From Fidelibacterota bacterium (GTDB taxonomy: Bacteria > Fidelibacterota > Marinisomatia > SCGC-AAA003-L08 > TS1B11), in the NCBI GenBank assembly GCA_020354025.1, contig CP070638.1, positions 3,071,110-3,129,883 of the forward strand: DNA of 58,774 nt, given 5' to 3'. The stretch's first letter is position 1. The number at the start of each line of letters is the position of its first letter. The position numbers and the translations under genes are program-made. The notes below the pieces were generated by a model, which was not told where the DNA came from, did no database searches, and was given only the letters and a program-made list of their open reading frames with translations. This document shows, piece after piece, positions 48,730 through 58,310 of this stretch.

Positions 48730-50136
48730 ATGAAACTCAGGCCTAGAATTCTCTCCCTCGTTATAGGGATACTGATCGTCGCCTTTCTGGCTCTGTCAAT
48801 CCCGCTTTATTGGTACACACGCAGCGCATTGGAAGACGAGTTGGATAAACGACTCATGAGTACGGCTGAAATAGCCGCCAGGAATCTGAACAGGGACCTG
48901 CTACTGAACATCACGAAGGAGCCGGCTTTTTCTACTGTCAGGTTCGCGCTGGAGCAGGAGCTGGCTTCCTTCCTGGTGGAGGGAATTGAAGGACTGGCGA
49001 TTTACTCACAGCGAGGCGAAGAACTGGCAAGGTGGAGTCTGAAGAAATCGGATCACCCGCAGATATCCGTTCTGCTTCAGACCTTTTCTGGAGCTGAAGA
49101 CAGTGCTATTAGTGCCGTGTCTGAGATATACCAATTAGCCAAGGGTGAGTATGTCAAAGCAGCAGCAATATCAATCAATATTGAAAAAAACCTGCCCCCC
49201 ATTCTGGTTGTCTGGGGAGGAGCAGAATTCATGACGATTATCGATCAGATCGTTGGGAGCATTTTCTGGATCGTTCTTATTTCCATCGTGGTTGCTGTTA
49301 GTCTGGCATTTGTCTTTTCGCGGTCGCTCACCCACCCGGTCATGCAACTTTCCGCTTATGCGAGGGCGATAAAGAAAAATATATATTCGGATACGGTGGA
49401 TTTGGAACGAACTGATGAGTTTGGTGATTTGAATCGCTCGCTGGCTGAGATGCACTCGGAGATCAGACAGAATGAGCAGTCAATGAAACAGCTCTTATCG
49501 GGTATCGCTCATGAAATAAAGAATCCCCTTGGCGGAATCGAAATTTACAGTGGGCTGTTGGAGGAGGCACTGGCCAAGGGATTACCCGAAAAAGATTCAG
49601 CCGAACCTCGATCCTACCTTGACAAGGTTACCAAGGAACTCCGCCACTTAAAGCAGATCGTGCTGGAATATCTCGACTATGCCAGGCCGGTGAAGAATCA
49701 TCTGGAGCCGCTGGCCGTGGAAGCCGTTTTCGAAGACATTCACCGGCTCCTCCAATTGGAGATGAGACAGAAGGAGGTGGAGTATAGCTTATCAGGTAAG
49801 GGTATTGTTCTGGGTGATGAATCGAAGCTGAGGCGTGTCTTTTTAAACCTGTTGAAGAACAGCCTCGAGGCAGTTGATCAAAAGGGCACCATCCAGGTCA
49901 GTATTGAAAGCCAGGACAGTCTCGTGAATATCGAAATAGTTGATAATGGCACAGGTATTTCGGAAGAAAACGTTGAGAATATCTTTGATCCATACTTTAC
50001 AACGCAGGACAAGGGCTATGGTCTGGGATTGGCTATCGTGAAGAACATTGTCGATGAAATGAATGGCACGATTCTTGTCCAGAGTGAAGAGGGAAAAGGG
50101 ACCAGATTTACTTTAAGGCTCCCCCGGAAAAAGTAA
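48730..50136 (+). CDS. Membrane sensor histidine kinase
   Basis: The protein has 468 residues. Membrane helix 1 spans about residues 8-28, a periplasmic sensor region of about 140 residues follows, and helix 2 spans about 174-197. A HAMP domain comes next. The dimerisation and phosphoacceptor motif is GIAHEIKNPLGG with His261. The ATPase domain has N-box NLLKNSLEA, G1 VDNGTGI and G2 GYGLGLAIVKN. Its gene ends one base before the response-regulator start, so the two form a pair. The periplasmic domain is not one I recognise, so the signal is unknown. Confidence 0.93.
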   Translation: MKLRPRILSLVIGILIVAFLALSIPLYWYTRSALEDELDKRLMSTAEIAARNLNRDLLLNITKEPAFSTVRFALEQELASFLVEGIEGLAIYSQRGEELARWSLKKSDHPQISVLLQTFSGAEDSAISAVSEIYQLAKGEYVKAAAISINIEKNLPPILVVWGGAEFMTIIDQIVGSIFWIVLISIVVAVSLAFVFSRSLTHPVMQLSAYARAIKKNIYSDTVDLERTDEFGDLNRSLAEMHSEIRQNEQSMKQLLSGIAHEIKNPLGGIEIYSGLLEEALAKGLPEKDSAEPRSYLDKVTKELRHLKQIVLEYLDYARPVKNHLEPLAVEAVFEDIHRLLQLEMRQKEVEYSLSGKGIVLGDESKLRRVFLNLLKNSLEAVDQKGTIQVSIESQDSLVNIEIVDNGTGISEENVENIFDPYFTTQDKGYGLGLAIVKNIVDEMNGTILVQSEEGKGTRFTLRLPRKK

Positions 50137-50137
50137 C

Positions 50138-51508
50138 ATGAAGAAAGTCAACGAAGGCACGATTCTGGTCATTGAAGATGACGCTACCATGAGGGAAGGC
50201 ATCCAGACCGTCCTGAAAAAAGAGGGCTACGATGTGAATTGCGCCGCCGATGGGCTTGAAGGGAGCCGACTTTTCCAGGCCCATCCTCCCAGCCTGGTCA
50301 TTACTGATCTGAAGCTCCCCGGCAAGAGTGGAATGCACCTGCTTCACGAGTTCATGGAGGTCCGTCCGTCTCTGCCGGTCATCCTCATTTCCGCTTATGG
50401 TACCATCGACCTGGCAGTTAATGCCCTGAAATCCGGTGCCAGAGACTTTATTGCCAAGCCGTTTTCCATCGATGAGCTGAAGGCGAAGGTTTCCGAAATC
50501 CTCAAGGATGTACCGGCACCCGAAATCAAGATCGGAGCGATTCCCACCTTCTACGGTATGGTCGGTTCTTCTCCCGAAATGCAGCAGCTGCAAGCACGGA
50601 TAAAACAGGTGGCTAAAGTGGATAGCCCGGTTTTAATCACCGGCGAAAGCGGGACGGGTAAGGAGTTGATCGTCCGTGCAATCCACAGTGAAAGCAGAAG
50701 AAAGGATAAGGTGTTTCTGGCAGTCAATTGTGGTGCCTTCACCGACACCCTTCTTGAAAGCGAACTGTTTGGCCATGAGAAAGGATCATTTACCGGGGCT
50801 GTCAGGCAACATAAAGGTATCTTTGAGCAGGCCGACGGTGGAACGATTCTACTGGATGAGATTGGTGAGATCTCGCCACAACTCCAGGTCAAACTGCTGA
50901 GGGTGCTTCAGCATCAATCTTTCCAGCGTCTGGGGGGAACGGATGTAACCTCGACAGACGTCCGGGTCATCGCCGCCACCAACCGGAACCTGAAGGAAGC
51001 CATAACAGCTAAACAATTTCGTGAGGATCTTTTTTTCCGATTGAATGTACTCCCTATCTATGTTCCCCCTTTGAGAGAACGGAAGTCCGATATTCCCGAC
51101 CTGATTGAGTACGTCATGGGAGTAAAATGTAACAGCCTTAGTATAGACAAACCGAAGGTAAGTGATGAAGCTGTCGAGAAATTGCAACGGTACTCCTGGC
51201 CAGGGAATATCAGAGAGCTGGAAAACCTGCTGGAAAGGGTACTTATCTTTTCGGACAGTGGCATGATTACGGCTGATGATATCTATTTTGACGAAAGCAA
51301 CGAAGAAGTGTCCGAGAGGACTGGCAAACTGTCGGATGTACTGCAAGATACGGAATACAGAATGATCAAGGATGCGTTAAATAAATCGGGCGGTGTCAAA
51401 CAAAGGGCGGCGGAATTATTGGGGATCAAAACAAGCACCCTGTATTATAAAATGGAGAAATACGGCCTTTTCGAAGATCGAAACCAGGACAATGAAATCA
51501 CGCAATAG
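50138..51508 (+). CDS. NtrC-family sigma-54-dependent response regulator
   Basis: The protein has 456 residues. The receiver domain has the acidic pair Asp14-Asp15 and phosphoacceptor Asp57 (ITDLKLPGKSG). The AAA+ domain carries Walker A GESGTGKE, the sigma-54 contact loop GSFTGA (216-221, serine variant of GAFTGA) and the Walker B region GGTILLDEIGE. The Fis-type helix-turn-helix is at the C-terminus (VKQRAAELLGIKTSTLYYKM). It should bind enhancer-like palindromes and activate sigma-54 promoters when phosphorylated by the upstream kinase. A matching site and promoter lie at 53625-53806. Confidence 0.95.
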   Translation: MKKVNEGTILVIEDDATMREGIQTVLKKEGYDVNCAADGLEGSRLFQAHPPSLVITDLKLPGKSGMHLLHEFMEVRPSLPVILISAYGTIDLAVNALKSGARDFIAKPFSIDELKAKVSEILKDVPAPEIKIGAIPTFYGMVGSSPEMQQLQARIKQVAKVDSPVLITGESGTGKELIVRAIHSESRRKDKVFLAVNCGAFTDTLLESELFGHEKGSFTGAVRQHKGIFEQADGGTILLDEIGEISPQLQVKLLRVLQHQSFQRLGGTDVTSTDVRVIAATNRNLKEAITAKQFREDLFFRLNVLPIYVPPLRERKSDIPDLIEYVMGVKCNSLSIDKPKVSDEAVEKLQRYSWPGNIRELENLLERVLIFSDSGMITADDIYFDESNEEVSERTGKLSDVLQDTEYRMIKDALNKSGGVKQRAAELLGIKTSTLYYKMEKYGLFEDRNQDNEITQ

Positions 51509-51532: not shown

Positions 51533-52516
51533 ATGAAAAAATTCACAAATAAAATGGCAATAATGAAAACCGCATTTGTTTTCACACTTTTCCTCATCCA
51601 GTCTACCCTATGGGGGCAGATACTGGAAGCGCCATGGAGGGATTTTCTATCTGTCGATTCCAGATTAACGGCAGCGAACGAATTGGAGCGGGAATGGCTG
51701 GAGCAGCAGCACGAACTGAGCGAAGAAATTCGCAAACTGCAGCAAAATCAATCCTGGTACAATGGGTGGATCGTAGAGCTAAGAATAGCTCGCAAGAGCA
51801 CACTACAGGTGGAACTGGCCGATTCGCTGCAGCAAATTCGGAAGAGAATTGCTGATTTAGAAGCGCAGCAGAATGAGGCGTTTCTAGCACTAAGGGAGGT
51901 CTATCAGCAAATCCTACTCGAATCTGAATCCGAGGACAGACTATCCCGATCTCAAAAAGAACAAGTGCTAGCTATTGGACGCCAGCTGCTAAGCCAGAGT
52001 AACGTCACGCTCGAGTTGCCCGATTATACGTCTATTCTGAACAGCCCTTATGAAAATGAAGCCATCAAGCACCTGGTCCTGGAAGATCTGCAGGCAGTAC
52101 TTCAGCGTAAACTGGTGCTGATTGATTCACTACTGACAGAGAAAGAAGCAGAGCTGACCCTATTAGATCGCTTAAATGAATTCCACCGTGACCTGAGCTA
52201 TCAGATGAAATCAGACCTTGATCCTGCAACACCTTCAACAGCTGGGATTCAGGAAACGCCCAGTCAGGACGAACCCGAACCTGTCTTTTTTGAAGGTGTA
52301 GAGGCTGAGGGAGTCTCCTATATGGGCGGAAGAAGTTCGAAGGCATCAGTCGGAGATAATCCTACAGCCACCATAAACCAGAGTCCGGTTGTTTCCGGTG
52401 AAACGAATATCTCTTTGAATGTGGAACCAACTAATGAAGTGATCAACCAACTGAAAAACAAACGCCGGCAGTATCAAGACCTTCTCAAACAGATTGAGAC
52501 CCAACTACCGCAATAA
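51533..52516 (+). CDS. Secreted coiled-coil protein of unknown family
   Basis: The protein has 327 residues. A signal peptide is predicted over about residues 11-29 (STLWGQ/I). The mature protein is Gln/Glu-rich with long heptad-like helices at about 45-150 and 180-225, a Pro/Ser/Thr linker around 230-300, and a short C-terminal helix (NQLKNKRRQYQDLLKQIE). I recognise no domain. It starts 24 bp after the response regulator and overlaps the next gene by 23 bases, so it is part of the two-component operon. A periplasmic adaptor or accessory signalling role is a guess from context only. Confidence 0.72.
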   Translation: MKKFTNKMAIMKTAFVFTLFLIQSTLWGQILEAPWRDFLSVDSRLTAANELEREWLEQQHELSEEIRKLQQNQSWYNGWIVELRIARKSTLQVELADSLQQIRKRIADLEAQQNEAFLALREVYQQILLESESEDRLSRSQKEQVLAIGRQLLSQSNVTLELPDYTSILNSPYENEAIKHLVLEDLQAVLQRKLVLIDSLLTEKEAELTLLDRLNEFHRDLSYQMKSDLDPATPSTAGIQETPSQDEPEPVFFEGVEAEGVSYMGGRSSKASVGDNPTATINQSPVVSGETNISLNVEPTNEVINQLKNKRRQYQDLLKQIETQLPQ

Positions 52517-53558
52517 AATCGGACTTAAAACTCTACCGTCACTTTTATTGGTTTTCTTTGGCCAATATTCTACCCTGCAAGCAGTCGACGGTCAACTTCA
52601 ATTTTCCAGCTATTTTGATACCAATGTACGCGAATCTCTTAACGTTCCAGAATCCACATTTGGACTAGCAACGCGCGGGCGTCTGAACCATGATATTTCC
52701 CGCCAACGAACAAATGTCTATGGGGAAATATTAGCTCAAGTAAATCTGGACGCCCATTTTCTGGGAGAGTCAAAACTCATAGTAAATGCTGACCTGGACT
52801 TTCAGTATACTTTAAATAAGTCTATATGCATTTTGGGACAATTGAGTCATTTTCAGAAATCGTTCTACAATCGTACCGGCTCCTACCTCTGGAACGAATA
52901 CAACACCTTTTTACGGTTTTTGCCAACACCCAGATTTTCAGGGTGGTTCGGTTATCGACATCGGAGTAAGTCACTTGAGTCTAAGGATAAATATCGATTC
53001 GGTGAAGATAACTTAGAATTCAAAGGAAGATACAACATCGATCCAAAAATATTCCTTGAAAGCACCATATCTCGCAGCAATATAGACCATATGGATTTTT
53101 CTGCTGTGGAAGTTGCAGATGATACGTCGCTGATCTTCTTGGGATATCCGCAAAAAGACAAGGGGATCAACGGGCTGTTTCACTTGCGATATTGGGGAAA
53201 AGTCATCATTGGAGTGCAGCTGGGGATCGGAGTTGTTGAATCCAACAGCGTCATAGGTGAATTCAGTTTTGTCAATTATCACGCATATCTTTCTGGTCAA
53301 CTGAGCCCAACGATCTTTTACCATGTTGTATTCCGGCGATTGGACAAGGCATATCAATATCCAGCGCTCGAGGGAGAAAGCAAATACAGGGACCCTGAGG
53401 AACCCACTCAAAATTTAACTCATATACGTCTGGAAAAGGTATTAGGTAACAGCTATATCGGCTATGTACAAATGAATTTGTTGCAGAACGAAACCATCTA
53501 TAACCATCAATACTATGATAAGACAATGATCGAGCTAGGCATTAAATATGAACCGTAG
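52494..53558 (+). CDS. Predicted outer-membrane beta-barrel protein of unknown family
   Basis: The protein has 354 residues if it starts at TTG 52494, which overlaps the previous gene by 23 bases; no ATG is available at the N-terminus and no strong ribosome-binding site is seen, so the start is uncertain. Residues 1-30 look like a signal peptide (LLLVFFGQYSTLQA). The remainder alternates polar and aromatic residues in short strands, as in a 12-16-stranded barrel (for example GWFGYRHRSKS, GYVQMNLLQNE), and ends with a strand-like IELGIKYEP. It is the last gene of the two-component operon. The function is unknown. Confidence 0.7.
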   Translation: MRPNYRNKIGLKTLPSLLLVFFGQYSTLQAVDGQLQFSSYFDTNVRESLNVPESTFGLATRGRLNHDISRQRTNVYGEILAQVNLDAHFLGESKLIVNADLDFQYTLNKSICILGQLSHFQKSFYNRTGSYLWNEYNTFLRFLPTPRFSGWFGYRHRSKSLESKDKYRFGEDNLEFKGRYNIDPKIFLESTISRSNIDHMDFSAVEVADDTSLIFLGYPQKDKGINGLFHLRYWGKVIIGVQLGIGVVESNSVIGEFSFVNYHAYLSGQLSPTIFYHVVFRRLDKAYQYPALEGESKYRDPEEPTQNLTHIRLEKVLGNSYIGYVQMNLLQNETIYNHQYYDKTMIELGIKYEP

Positions 53559-53624
53559 TACAAAGCAGTCCAACGGATCGAGCTACGAGCTATTCCATTC
53601 TCTGATCGTTTCCCGTAATTAACC

Positions 53625-53661
53625 ATCAGCTTTCTGATAAAATCCTCAGATTTCTGAGGAT
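53625..53661. promoter_or_regulatory. Pair of palindromes, likely NtrC-type enhancer sites
   Basis: ATCAG-CTTT-CTGAT (53625-53638) and ATCCTCAG-ATTT-CTGAGGAT (53642-53661) share the core TCAGnTTTCTGA. Their centres are exactly 20 bp apart, about two helical turns, and lie about 165-185 bp before the start site predicted from the -24/-12 element. That fits dimer sites for a sigma-54 activator. They lie 67 bp after the barrel gene stop, so they could also be transcript-end hairpins. Confidence 0.5.
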
Positions 53662-53790
53662 GATACCCTGTATCAACGGCTGCCAAACCAAACCGATTTA
53701 GTTTTTTTATCGTTATTTTATCCCTGACTCAACGCTTACTAGCCTTTCCGCATTATTCCCCTCACATTACGCTCCCCCGGCAAATTCCTG

Positions 53791-53806
53791 CGGCATGTCA
53801 TTTGCT
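53791..53806 (+). promoter_or_regulatory. Candidate sigma-54 promoter (-24/-12)
   Basis: The sequence CGGCATGTCATTTGCT matches the consensus TGGCACGnnnnTTGCW at 10 of 12 fixed positions, including the required GG and GC at the correct 10-base separation. The predicted start is near 53817, giving a leader of about 83 bases before the vWA ATG at 53900. An inverted repeat GTCATTT/AAATGAC (53797-53813) overlaps the -12 element. Confidence 0.55.
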
Positions 53807-53899
53807 AAATGACCAGTAGAGGGCCAATATGATCTCTATAAACAGAAAACGCAACCATTGCGAACGGTGCTCTGCTTAATTAGATGAGGAGGAATAACT

Positions 53900-55450
53900 A
53901 TGAAACGTCAGTCTCATAAAACGCTCGCCTACTTCAATTATCTTTTCCTTTTCGTTATTTCCCTGATTCTTGGTGGCTGTGAAACGGATATTTACGATCC
54001 AGTGAACACACCCGAGGAAAAGAGTCGCTACGCGGGCAACGAGATGGCTTTTGCTGATTTTTCTGGGGGTAGTGGTGCATCTGGGTGCAGCGATTGCTAC
54101 CCCGGCACCGAAAAGTTCGGCGAACTTACATACAATGGCTTTGTCTATACCACCGAAGACAATCTCTCCACATTCGGTATTGACGTTGATGCCGGTTCGT
54201 ACACGTTTGGCCGGAAAAAGATTAACGAGGGTCACCTGCCACCAAAAGAGTCCGTGCGAATTGAGGAGTACATTAATTATTTCCGGCAGGACTATGATCC
54301 ACCGATCGATGTGCCATTTTCAGTCATGGTTGATGGTGCGCCTTCACCATTTCGTGGAGACAGTCTGCATGTTCTTCGGATCGGCATTCAGGGTAAAGAA
54401 CTTACAGGCAGTGAGCGAAAATCGTGGAATCTGACATTCCTGATCGATATATCGGGTTCGATGACCACGAGGTTGGACCTGGTCAAGCAAAGTCTTTATA
54501 TCCTGGTGGACAATATGCAGGATGGGGATAAGATCTCGATCTGTACCTACGCGGGGAGTGTGGGCACCGTGCTTACTCCCACGACGTTGGCGGAGAATGA
54601 CAAGGAAGGTATTAAAGGGATCATTTCCGACCTGGTAGCCGGCGGCAGTACGGCCATGGCCTCGGGAATTCAAAACGCGTACGATGTGAATACGTCCGGC
54701 TTGATAGATGGTGGAGTGAATCGCGTCGTAGTCTGCTCCGATGGTGATGCCAATGTCGGTCCAACCAGCCACGAGGATATTCTGGAGTTGATCTCGTCTT
54801 ACGTGGAAAACGGCGTCACCCTCTCCACGCTGGGTTTTGGTCAAGGAAATTACAATGACAACATGATGGAACAACTCGCAGATCGCGGCAACGGCAACTA
54901 CTATTACATCGATTCCTTGGCGGAAGCTGAAAGGCTCTTTGAGGAGGAATTGGTCGCCATGATGGAAGTGATTGCCAAGGATGTGAAGATTCAGGTCGAA
55001 TTTGATCTACGTGAAGTAGTCCGCTATCGCCTCATCGGATATGAAAATCGCGACATTGCCGACGAAGATTTCGATGATGAAACCATAGACGCGGGTGAAA
55101 TCGGAGCCGGGCACCGCGTAACGGCCCTCTATGAGGTCGAGCTATCGGGAAACGGGATCGGGAATCTGGTGACTGTTCACCTGCGGTACAAGCTCCCTAA
55201 CGGAGCGGCCGATATTCCTCTGGAGGTGCCTATTACCGTAGATGCCCTGGCCGACACTTTTACCGAAGGCAGCGAGCGTTTTCAGTTCACCGTGGGCGTC
55301 GCCGAATTCGCCGAAATCCTACGTGAGAGTCCTTACGTCAACACCTTGCTCGAAGATGTAGAAAGTATCGTCGCGGAAGCCGTAGCGGGCGGTGATGATC
55401 GGGATGTAGAATTTCTGGAGCTGGTCAGAAAGGCACAGACAATCGATTAA
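53900..55450 (+). CDS. vWA-domain lipoprotein (YfbK-like)
   Basis: The protein has 516 residues. A lipoprotein signal ends LGGC (Cys27), followed by a Gly/Ser-rich linker. The vWFA N-terminal domain is recognised from NLSTFGIDVDAGSYTF and the RIEEYINYF segment. The vWA domain has the MIDAS DISGSM (Asp183 start) with later Thr and Asp elements (GGSTAM, CSDGDAN). A DUF3520-like C-terminal beta domain follows. vWA proteins of this kind bind ligands through a metal and are of unclear function in bacteria. GAGGAGGAAT precedes the ATG. It is the first gene of the operon downstream of the candidate sigma-54 promoter. Confidence 0.92.
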   Translation: MKRQSHKTLAYFNYLFLFVISLILGGCETDIYDPVNTPEEKSRYAGNEMAFADFSGGSGASGCSDCYPGTEKFGELTYNGFVYTTEDNLSTFGIDVDAGSYTFGRKKINEGHLPPKESVRIEEYINYFRQDYDPPIDVPFSVMVDGAPSPFRGDSLHVLRIGIQGKELTGSERKSWNLTFLIDISGSMTTRLDLVKQSLYILVDNMQDGDKISICTYAGSVGTVLTPTTLAENDKEGIKGIISDLVAGGSTAMASGIQNAYDVNTSGLIDGGVNRVVVCSDGDANVGPTSHEDILELISSYVENGVTLSTLGFGQGNYNDNMMEQLADRGNGNYYYIDSLAEAERLFEEELVAMMEVIAKDVKIQVEFDLREVVRYRLIGYENRDIADEDFDDETIDAGEIGAGHRVTALYEVELSGNGIGNLVTVHLRYKLPNGAADIPLEVPITVDALADTFTEGSERFQFTVGVAEFAEILRESPYVNTLLEDVESIVAEAVAGGDDRDVEFLELVRKAQTID

Positions 55451-55495: not shown

Positions 55496-56773
55496 ATGAA
55501 CAGAAATATTTCCGCTCTTTTTCTACCCATATCGTTGGCGGGCCTGGTGCTCATGCACTGCTCTAATCCCTCGGAGCCGGATGACGTCAATTATAGTGCC
55601 CTACCCCGGCAGCTGACCCCTGAGGAAATCGAGCTGGCGGCCTCGGCTGACCGCTTCGGGCTAAAGCTGTTCCGGGAGGTGGTGCAGCAAGACGCCGACA
55701 AGAACATCTTCGTTTCACCCCTGAGCGTTTCGATGGCCCTGGGGATGACGGCCAACGGTGCCGCCGATTCCACCCTGGCGGCCATGCGAACCACACTGGA
55801 GCTAGCGGACCTGGATGAGGGAGAGAGCAACGTAGCCTACCAGAGTCTGATCGAGCTCCTGACGGGAGCCGATCCCAAGGTGCAGTTCGACATCGCCAAC
55901 TCCATCTGGTATCGGAATATATGGACCTTTAACAACGACTTCCTGCAGCGCTGCCAGGACTACTTCGAAGCAGTGGTGCAGGGGCTGGACTTCAGCGATC
56001 CTGGAGCAGCGGATGTGATTAACGCCTGGGTGAAGGAGAATACACAGGGGAAAATTGAGGAGATTGTGGGCAAGCCCATCGATCCGCTGACCGCGATGTT
56101 CCTTATCAACGCCCTTTACTTCAACGGCACCTGGACCTATGAGTTTGATCCAGTGGATACCGAAGACGATGAGTTCACGCGGATGGATGGATCTAAAGTG
56201 GCGTGCAGGATGATGAGCCAGGAGGCGGACTTGCTTTACCTGGAAACAGGCCAGTTTCAGGCCGTGGACCTGCCTTACGGCGATGGCCTGTTTTCCATGA
56301 CGGTCCTTCTCCCCAAGCCTGAAGTCAACTTAGACGATCTCGTCGCTGACTTAACCCCGGAAAACTGGAGCTTGTGGATCAGCGGGCTGGATTCTCACGC
56401 GGTACAGCTCGAGCTGCCTAAAATCAAGTTATCCTACGATCTCACGATGAATGATGTGCTCATGGCGCTGGGGATGGGTGTTGCCTTTGATCCGGGGCAG
56501 GCCGACTTCACCCGGATGCTGGTTGAAGGGGAGGAGTATCCGGGCAACCTGTATATCTATCAGGTCAAGCACAAGACCTTTGTGCAGGTGGATGAAGAAG
56601 GCACCGAGGCAGCGGCGGTCACAATGGTTGAGATTGGCTTCACCTCCATTGGCCCCAATAGCATTGTTATGCGGGTAGACCGCCCCTTCATCTTCGTCAT
56701 CCGGGAGCGCACCTCGGGAACGCTGCTGTTCATGGGCAAGATCGTCGAGCCGGTGTGGGAAGAGACCAGCTAA
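55496..56773 (+). CDS. Serpin-family protease inhibitor, lipoprotein
   Basis: The protein has 425 residues. The signal ends at Cys22 (LMHC), so the inhibitor is membrane-anchored. The serpin core is complete: NIFVSPLSVSMALGM near the start, the breach and shutter segments (LINALYFNGTW) and the terminal DRPFIFVI strand. The reactive loop has an inhibitory-type hinge, GTEAAAVT starting at Gly369 (P15). Counting from the family register puts P1-P1' at Thr383-Ser384 with Phe at P2, suggesting an elastase-like or similar target. It lies 45 bp after the vWA gene, so it is probably co-expressed with it. Target protease unknown. Confidence 0.95.
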   Translation: MNRNISALFLPISLAGLVLMHCSNPSEPDDVNYSALPRQLTPEEIELAASADRFGLKLFREVVQQDADKNIFVSPLSVSMALGMTANGAADSTLAAMRTTLELADLDEGESNVAYQSLIELLTGADPKVQFDIANSIWYRNIWTFNNDFLQRCQDYFEAVVQGLDFSDPGAADVINAWVKENTQGKIEEIVGKPIDPLTAMFLINALYFNGTWTYEFDPVDTEDDEFTRMDGSKVACRMMSQEADLLYLETGQFQAVDLPYGDGLFSMTVLLPKPEVNLDDLVADLTPENWSLWISGLDSHAVQLELPKIKLSYDLTMNDVLMALGMGVAFDPGQADFTRMLVEGEEYPGNLYIYQVKHKTFVQVDEEGTEAAAVTMVEIGFTSIGPNSIVMRVDRPFIFVIRERTSGTLLFMGKIVEPVWEETS

Positions 56774-56894: not shown

Positions 56895-58310
56895 ATGCAA
56901 GGACCAGGATTTAAACTCATCGGCATCGTTTTCCTAGTTGCTCTGACTCTGACATGTGAGAAAAACATCTACGAAGGGACTAATTTCGAAGGGGATCCCC
57001 TTTCAAATGATCTTTTCCACGGGGATATCGTTGGCACCGTCAAACAGAGCGACAGTGAAGCAAAGGTCTTGGCCAGCCAAATCGCGCCGGTTGACTCAGC
57101 CATAATTGATCCGGTAACCGGCAATTTCGAAATGTATGACCTTCGCATAGGTAACTACGACCTGAGTATCCAGGCAGATAACTATCGCACGTATGTGCAC
57201 AAGAATGTTATGGTTCAGGCGGGCGGCGTCACCTATATGGGCGAGATCGACCTTTCCACGGTGCCCGACCTGGTCGCAGAGCACTATCCCGAGGACATGG
57301 ACGAGATGGTCTACTCGAGCCGGTGGCAGCGGATCAATGTCTCTATACTCTTCACGAGAGAGATGGATCGCGAGAGCGTCGAAGCGGCCTTATCCACCGA
57401 TCCCCCCACCGAAGGGATTTTTTACTGGGGCCAGTATACCCAGGCTCCGGGGCCTAGGTATTATTATGATTACGCTCTAGCTGATTATCAGCAACGTGCG
57501 GCGTTTACCGCAGGGGCCACCATCACCACCTACAGCAAGATAAGCAGCGTGACCTATCAGATAGCCCAGAAGGACTCCTATTCCGATACGACCTACTATG
57601 TCACCTTGAGCACCGAGGCGATGGATACCTCAGGCACTCACCTCCGCTTCCCGCTGGAATTATCCTTCAGCACCGTCCAGTCGTCCATCAGCTATGCAGG
57701 CATCCAGACAAATCCTTTCCATGGCGACGTGGATGTCAGTCCGATGACCAATTCCATTAACGTCACCTTTCCCCGGCGTATGGATGCCCCAACCACCGAA
57801 GCAGTCGTGACTGTAATACCACCGCAACAGTTTTTCTTCCTGTGGCCGGAAAAGAATGTTCTTAAGATTTACACCGGAGAGCCGCTTTATACCGATACCG
57901 CTTACGAGATTACCATCGATGCTACTGCGGAAGACCTCGACGGAGTGCCGCTGGGTGATGATTTCACCTTCTCTTTCAGTACAGCTCCGGTCATGGTTAC
58001 TAGCACATCGCCGCATAATGCCGAGGTATATGTAAGCCCCAGCTCTGTCATTACACTGTGGTTTAATACCTTTATGCTGAAGTCGAGCGTTGAGAGCGCC
58101 TTGTCCTTCAGTCCAGGCGTTCCCGGGTATCTGAGGTGGGGCACCGAGCATCATAGCGACGAGAAAGACGCCCTAACCTTCTGGCCATCAAGCGATCTTC
58201 AGGTCAATACCAGGTATACTGTAACTCTTGGCACTCAGGCGAAAGACTATCATGGAACCAGCCTGAAGGAACCTTACAGCTTCACTTTTGTGACCAGGCC
58301 TGAACTATAG
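56895..58310 (+). CDS. Lipoprotein with carboxypeptidase-regulatory-like and Big_5 Ig-like domains
   Basis: The protein has 471 residues. The signal ends LTLTC (Cys21). Residues about 40-115 form a small beta-sandwich of the carboxypeptidase-regulatory type (GNFEMYDLRIGNYDLSI). Three Big_5-like domains follow, recognised from the MDRESVEAAL, RRMDAPTTEAVV and MLKSSVESAL elements, each followed by a terminal FSFST- or FTFVT-type strand. Such proteins are often surface or periplasmic binding scaffolds. GAGGAGG precedes the ATG. It lies 121 bp after the serpin gene and 39 bp before the outer membrane protein gene. Confidence 0.85.
   Translation: MQGPGFKLIGIVFLVALTLTCEKNIYEGTNFEGDPLSNDLFHGDIVGTVKQSDSEAKVLASQIAPVDSAIIDPVTGNFEMYDLRIGNYDLSIQADNYRTYVHKNVMVQAGGVTYMGEIDLSTVPDLVAEHYPEDMDEMVYSSRWQRINVSILFTREMDRESVEAALSTDPPTEGIFYWGQYTQAPGPRYYYDYALADYQQRAAFTAGATITTYSKISSVTYQIAQKDSYSDTTYYVTLSTEAMDTSGTHLRFPLELSFSTVQSSISYAGIQTNPFHGDVDVSPMTNSINVTFPRRMDAPTTEAVVTVIPPQQFFFLWPEKNVLKIYTGEPLYTDTAYEITIDATAEDLDGVPLGDDFTFSFSTAPVMVTSTSPHNAEVYVSPSSVITLWFNTFMLKSSVESALSFSPGVPGYLRWGTEHHSDEKDALTFWPSSDLQVNTRYTVTLGTQAKDYHGTSLKEPYSFTFVTRPEL

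Follow-up and report, generated by a model that had tools for sequence, protein, structure and literature searches.

What is the role of two short palindromes that lie side by side between the end of a regulator operon and the start of a gene for a lipoprotein-like protein? We addressed this question in a window of 58,774 nucleotides, the whole stretch of DNA analyzed, in which all features discussed below lie on the plus strand. The predicted tandem operator consists of box 1 (TCAGCTTTCTGA, 53626-53637) and box 2 (TCAGATTTCTGA, 53646-53657), whose cores of 12 bp begin at 53626 and 53646 and have their centres at 53631.5 and 53651.5. The window sequence confirmed the initial sequence-only reading of two palindromes with a common core and centres exactly 20 bp apart. 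Their description as perfect palindromes holds for the arms, namely the 5-bp arms of the box 1 dyad (ATCAG-CTTT-CTGAT, 53625-53638) and the 9-bp arms of the box 2 dyad (ATCCTCAGA-TT-TCTGAGGAT, 53642-53661), but not for the centres CTTT and TT, which are asymmetric. The pair begins 68 bp past the stop codon of the gene at 52494-53558, and box 1 lies 274 bp from the ATG at 53900. As had been supposed, such a pair is unlikely by chance: it occurs once in the real window and never in 60 simulations of the full window under a first-order Markov model. We propose, with a probability of about 0.87, that the pair serves the regulator encoded at 50138-51508 as a tandem upstream activating sequence and drives sigma-54 promoters. 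The computed basis of this prediction comprises motif recurrence, spacing, promoter coupling, linkage and co-occurrence of regulator and motif, and the presence of rpoN.

The genome that contains the window (G000; 3,404,291 bp, one contig) harbored 10 copies of the core, compared with none of the reversed core used as a control. Seven of the 10 belonged to five tandem pairs, all spaced 20 bp start to start, and the search for tandem pairs with up to three mismatches likewise returned five, with none for the reversed pattern. The three unpaired cores compare with about 1.6 single cores expected from base counts. Among 245 genomes of Candidatus Neomarinimicrobiota, 40 contained the pair at up to three mismatches, and the reversed pattern gave four matches in total. 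When the spacer was left free (1-29 bases) in the same 245 genomes, 30 pairs were found, of which 27 had a spacer of 8 bases, and the control gave none; the remaining three (spacers of 5, 3, and 1) were AT-rich and occurred in genomes without any other pair. The spacing of two helical turns is therefore a fixed property of the motif. Families further removed from that of the window carry the core with its asymmetry reversed. The sequence-only reading had called for a genome-wide scan and had named, as outcomes that would speak against it, cores scattered randomly inside genes and a mere transcript-end structure without conservation in relatives. Neither was seen; the pairs recur in G000 and across genomes of the phylum, and they precede sigma-54 promoters.

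A predicted sigma-54 promoter element, CGGCATGTCATTTGCT, was identified at 53791-53806, with GG at 53792-53793 and GC at 53804-53805. Transcription is predicted to start at 53817, 12 bp past the C of the -12 element at 53805, which places the box centres 185.5 and 165.5 bp upstream, as had been read from the sequence (165-185 bp). Enhancer sites typically lie 100-250 bp upstream of sigma-54 promoters, according to PMC6615313, and the element lies within this range downstream of the pair, as expected for an upstream activating sequence. At 23 of the 25 sites in the family of the window (some orthologous to each other), the best GG-N10-TG match within 1 kb fell at +130 to +170, counted from the pair start, with about one expected, and the distance from pair centre to predicted start was 147-177 bp. 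Scoring with an independent consensus, TGGCACG-N4-TTGCW, gave at least 9 of 12 matching positions in the expected stretch at 21 of 51 sites in the phylum, compared with 3, 1, and 2 in control stretches. Additionally, in an alignment of orthologous intergenic regions from six loci, the conserved blocks were the -24/-12 element and both boxes. A scan of the window with the bare sigma-54 consensus was uninformative (125 matches vs. 142 expected), so the promoter assignment rests on conserved position and not on the consensus. The promoter match was weaker in more distant families, with TTGT or TTGA at -12, and one site in G000 (C1:485767) had a weak match of 8/12. A single copy of rpoN was identified in G000 (PF04552 gene at C1:1682437), and no sigma-70 promoter was found within 53300-54100.

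The gene at 50138-51508 encodes a predicted NtrC-type sigma-54 enhancer-binding protein, which Pfam matches, orthologs, and helix comparison point to as the binder of both boxes. Its receiver (PF00072), AAA+ (PF00158), and Fis-type helix-turn-helix (HTH, PF02954) domains all scored above the Pfam cut-offs, and its translation contains the sigma-54 contact loop GSFTGA, the Walker A motif GESGTGKE, and the recognition helix KTSTLYYK within the Fis-type HTH. These domains and motifs, together with the sigma-54 gene in the genome, are those of an NtrC-type enhancer-binding protein. The protein scored below every NCBIfam equivalog cut-off, including those for NtrC (405 bits against 558.6 for ntrC and 320 against 620 for a second NtrC model), AtoC (404 against 714), and ZraR (358 against 760).

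Orthologs of the regulator, defined by about 46% identity or more and at least 415 bits and clearly apart from paralogs (<390 bits), were found in 37 of the 245 genomes. Where at least 2.2 kb of sequence was available (32 loci), the pair lay 2.0-3.1 kb past the regulator stop codon in 24, and in loci inspected gene by gene it directly followed the last operon gene. The pair was present in 29 of the 37 genomes with the regulator and in 11 of the 208 without it (Fisher p ~1e-21, shared ancestry ignored). Eight regulator-bearing genomes thus lacked the pair at up to three mismatches, and 11 pair-bearing genomes lacked a detected ortholog; some of these discordant genomes are incomplete assemblies or three-mismatch chance matches. 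The helix KTSTLYYK was near-constant in orthologs accompanied by the motif, compared with KPGT, KTGA, or KAGT in most of those without it, and this covariation was significant when ancestry was ignored (Fisher p 0.0017). G000 encodes six true enhancer-binding proteins, and the helices of the other five differ from KTSTLYYK. The sequence-only reading had proposed the Fis-type regulator two genes upstream as a cooperative binder. Two further operon genes do separate the regulator gene from the pair, and synteny and the co-occurrence of orthologs support the choice of this protein; cooperative binding is suggested by the invariant spacing of the boxes.

Several orthologs depart from this pattern. 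Those with altered helices (KPGT, KTGA, KAGT, or similar; L224, L226, L227, L229, L232, and L233) mostly lacked the motif. L226 has two related boxes, TCAAAATTTTGA / TCAAATATTTAA, again 20 bp apart, which are possibly a shifted operator. A second regulator ortholog in genome G213 (L221, contig C39) had an unchanged helix and no nearby pair, and it is a possible duplication.

The conserved block begins with a gene for a membrane histidine kinase (HAMP-HisKA-HATPase by Pfam, 48730-50136), the likely partner of the regulator; the same gene also lies upstream of the regulator at L046, L047, L048, L049, and L050. The regulator gene is followed by genes for an exported, helical coiled-coil-like protein (51533-52516), which had no Pfam or NCBIfam match and gave a low-confidence helical model (mean pLDDT 60), and for a predicted 16-strand outer-membrane beta-barrel (52494-53558; AlphaFold model, mean pLDDT 84), the last gene of the operon. 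Foldseek matched the barrel to porins and AlgE at a TM score of about 0.5, which indicates the barrel class only. Both proteins belong to no known family, are conserved across the phylum between regulator and pair, and may be sensor accessories. It is conceivable, if rather doubtful, that the kinase, regulator, coiled coil, and barrel form an envelope-sensing system acting through the TCAGNTTTCTGA enhancer on dispersed genes for secreted proteins, including serpin-type inhibitors, in surface defence. The barrel and the periplasmic coiled coil would then report the state of the surface to the kinase.

The first predicted target in the window is a lipoprotein-like protein with YfbK/VWA domains (53900-55450), and in G003 and G009 the site is likewise followed by an ortholog of its gene. 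The next gene encodes a serpin with an N-terminal export signal (55496-56773), probably a target as well, farther along the same transcription unit, and serpin genes recur in the predicted regulon (L132, L137, L142, L018, and L050). A further probable target is an exported protein with Big_5 domains (56895-58310); in G001, an apparent ortholog stands behind another copy of the site (L131). All three assignments were made with Pfam. The regulator neighbourhood is rearranged in G001, and the pair still precedes zinc-ribbon and Big_5-like targets elsewhere in that genome, indicating that the site belongs with the genes that follow it rather than with the end of the regulator operon. At other sites, the predicted targets include DUF3160 proteins, serpins, a PD40 lipoprotein, small lipoproteins, and proteins whose C-terminal sorting tails are FlgD-like or of the Por type. 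Export signals were assigned to 20 of 24 first targets and to at most 27 of 35 ORFs of the window by a crude rule that many window ORFs pass, so "mainly exported" is used here as a description and no enrichment is claimed.

Other features were observed among the predicted targets. A zinc-ribbon-like exported protein (CxxC...FCVNCGE) recurs at L131, L136, and L145, where its gene stands behind the VWA gene or immediately behind the motif. DUF3160 genes stand directly behind the motif at L128 (G000 C1:1386000-1397500) and L140, and the full-length DUF3160 protein of L128 combines a FlgD-like C-terminal domain with a weak Por-secretion tail, a hint that the phylum may use a type IX-like route of export.

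Taken together, the upstream activating sequence proposed here would operate as follows. A signal would reach the adjacent histidine kinase, which would phosphorylate the regulator. A regulator dimer would then occupy each 12-bp dyad with its pair of Fis-type HTHs. Being two turns apart, both dimers would sit on the same face of the helix and could nucleate an AAA+ oligomer. Through a DNA loop, this oligomer would reach RNA polymerase-sigma-54 at the -24/-12 element, some 165 bp away, and use ATP to drive open-complex formation. The output at the window site would be the unit of VWA-lipoprotein, serpin, and Big_5 genes, and other copies of the site would drive other, mainly exported, proteins. 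Within this scheme we infer binding, cooperativity, phosphorylation by the kinase, looping, the extent of the operon, and sensing through coiled coil and barrel, with the mechanism following what is established for NtrC-type activators (PMC4641369 and PMC6615313).

The position of the pair, just past the stop codon of the last operon gene, could also be that of RNA hairpins ending the regulator transcript, as a terminator or a stabiliser of the 3' end. The strand folds better than its shuffles (z -3.1), a value that carries little weight because any palindrome gives such a fold. The G+C-rich stem with an immediate T-run that marks an intrinsic terminator is absent from the pair; no T-run follows either stem (GATACCC follows the stem), no terminator was called at the site, and the search of Rfam gave no family match at the pair, with only a sub-threshold MicX hit (16.4 vs. 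75 bits). Across 416 dyad cells from 52 distinct sites, 363 matched the consensus, 52 carried one-sided changes, one had unpaired changes on both sides, and no compensatory double change was seen; the choice of sites at up to three mismatches is somewhat biased against double changes, which weakens this test. Moreover, other copies of the pair do not lie at gene ends, the upstream gene diverges at L129, G001 keeps the site with the target genes and away from the regulator, and a fixed distance to a sigma-54 promoter would be unexpected for a terminator. We consider a hairpin role very improbable.

Slightly less improbable, but still quite unlikely, is that the pair is a sigma-54 enhancer for another enhancer-binding protein and that it is linked to the operon of 50138-51508 only by coincidence. 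The presence of six such proteins in G000 and the location of the remaining G000 copies far from the regulator gene are compatible with this possibility; the linkage of regulator and pair is nevertheless kept across families of the phylum, their co-occurrence is specific, and the recognition helix covaries with the motif. Tandem dyads two turns apart are also found with repressors, and binding by the regulator is itself a prediction, so the boxes might be operators of a different dimeric protein, either a repressor or a sigma-70-class activator, overlaying the sigma-54 promoter. This seems extremely improbable, given that a distance of 147-177 bp to the start is typical of enhancers and atypical of promoter-proximal repressor sites, and that the linkage to the regulator would be left unexplained. 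A tandem activating sequence bound by the regulator of 50138-51508 remains the preferred explanation.

Among known systems, the NtrC enhancer of glnA consists of a pair of palindromes, each a dimer site, that share one helical face and lie over 100 bp upstream of the -24/-12 element. The window pair resembles it in its palindromic dimer sites, their helical face, and their distance to the promoter, but has a different half-site and spacing, and the regulator of the window scored below both NtrC cut-offs. AtoSC and atoDAEB of Escherichia coli (PMC3118216) also combine a histidine kinase and a receiver-AAA-Fis-HTH regulator with two adjacent sites of 20 bp in front of a sigma-54 promoter and a target beside the regulator. 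The AtoC sites, which control short-chain fatty acid catabolism, differ from the window pair in being two inverted 20-bp sites of another sequence (PMC3118216), and the score of the window regulator was far from the AtoC cut-off, as given above. The sigma-54 regulons predicted in Clostridiales (PMC6615313) and Desulfovibrio (PMC4641369) rest on similar comparative-genomics evidence and share the arrangement of an enhancer site, a sigma-54 promoter, and a target adjoining the regulator, but belong to other phyla.

The searched text of sigma-54 regulon papers made no mention of the TCAGNTTTCTGA site, and our literature search returned no paper describing the motif, the regulator group, or the regulon, and no worked-out regulation for Neomarinimicrobiota. 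The control mechanism is a textbook one, and the operator sequence, regulator group, and regulon appear to be new. These results provide a predicted regulator, operator, sigma factor, and target list for a widespread phylum known mainly from metagenome assemblies, and the motif is ready for use in annotating Neomarinimicrobiota genomes. Sigma-54 has been proposed to govern mainly the bacterial exterior (PMC3162934), and the predicted regulon fits this proposal in that its targets are mainly exported or surface proteins. The earlier proposal covers polysaccharides, flagella, lipoproteins, and wall precursors (PMC3162934), whereas the targets here are secreted serpin, VWA, DUF3160, and sorting-tail proteins.
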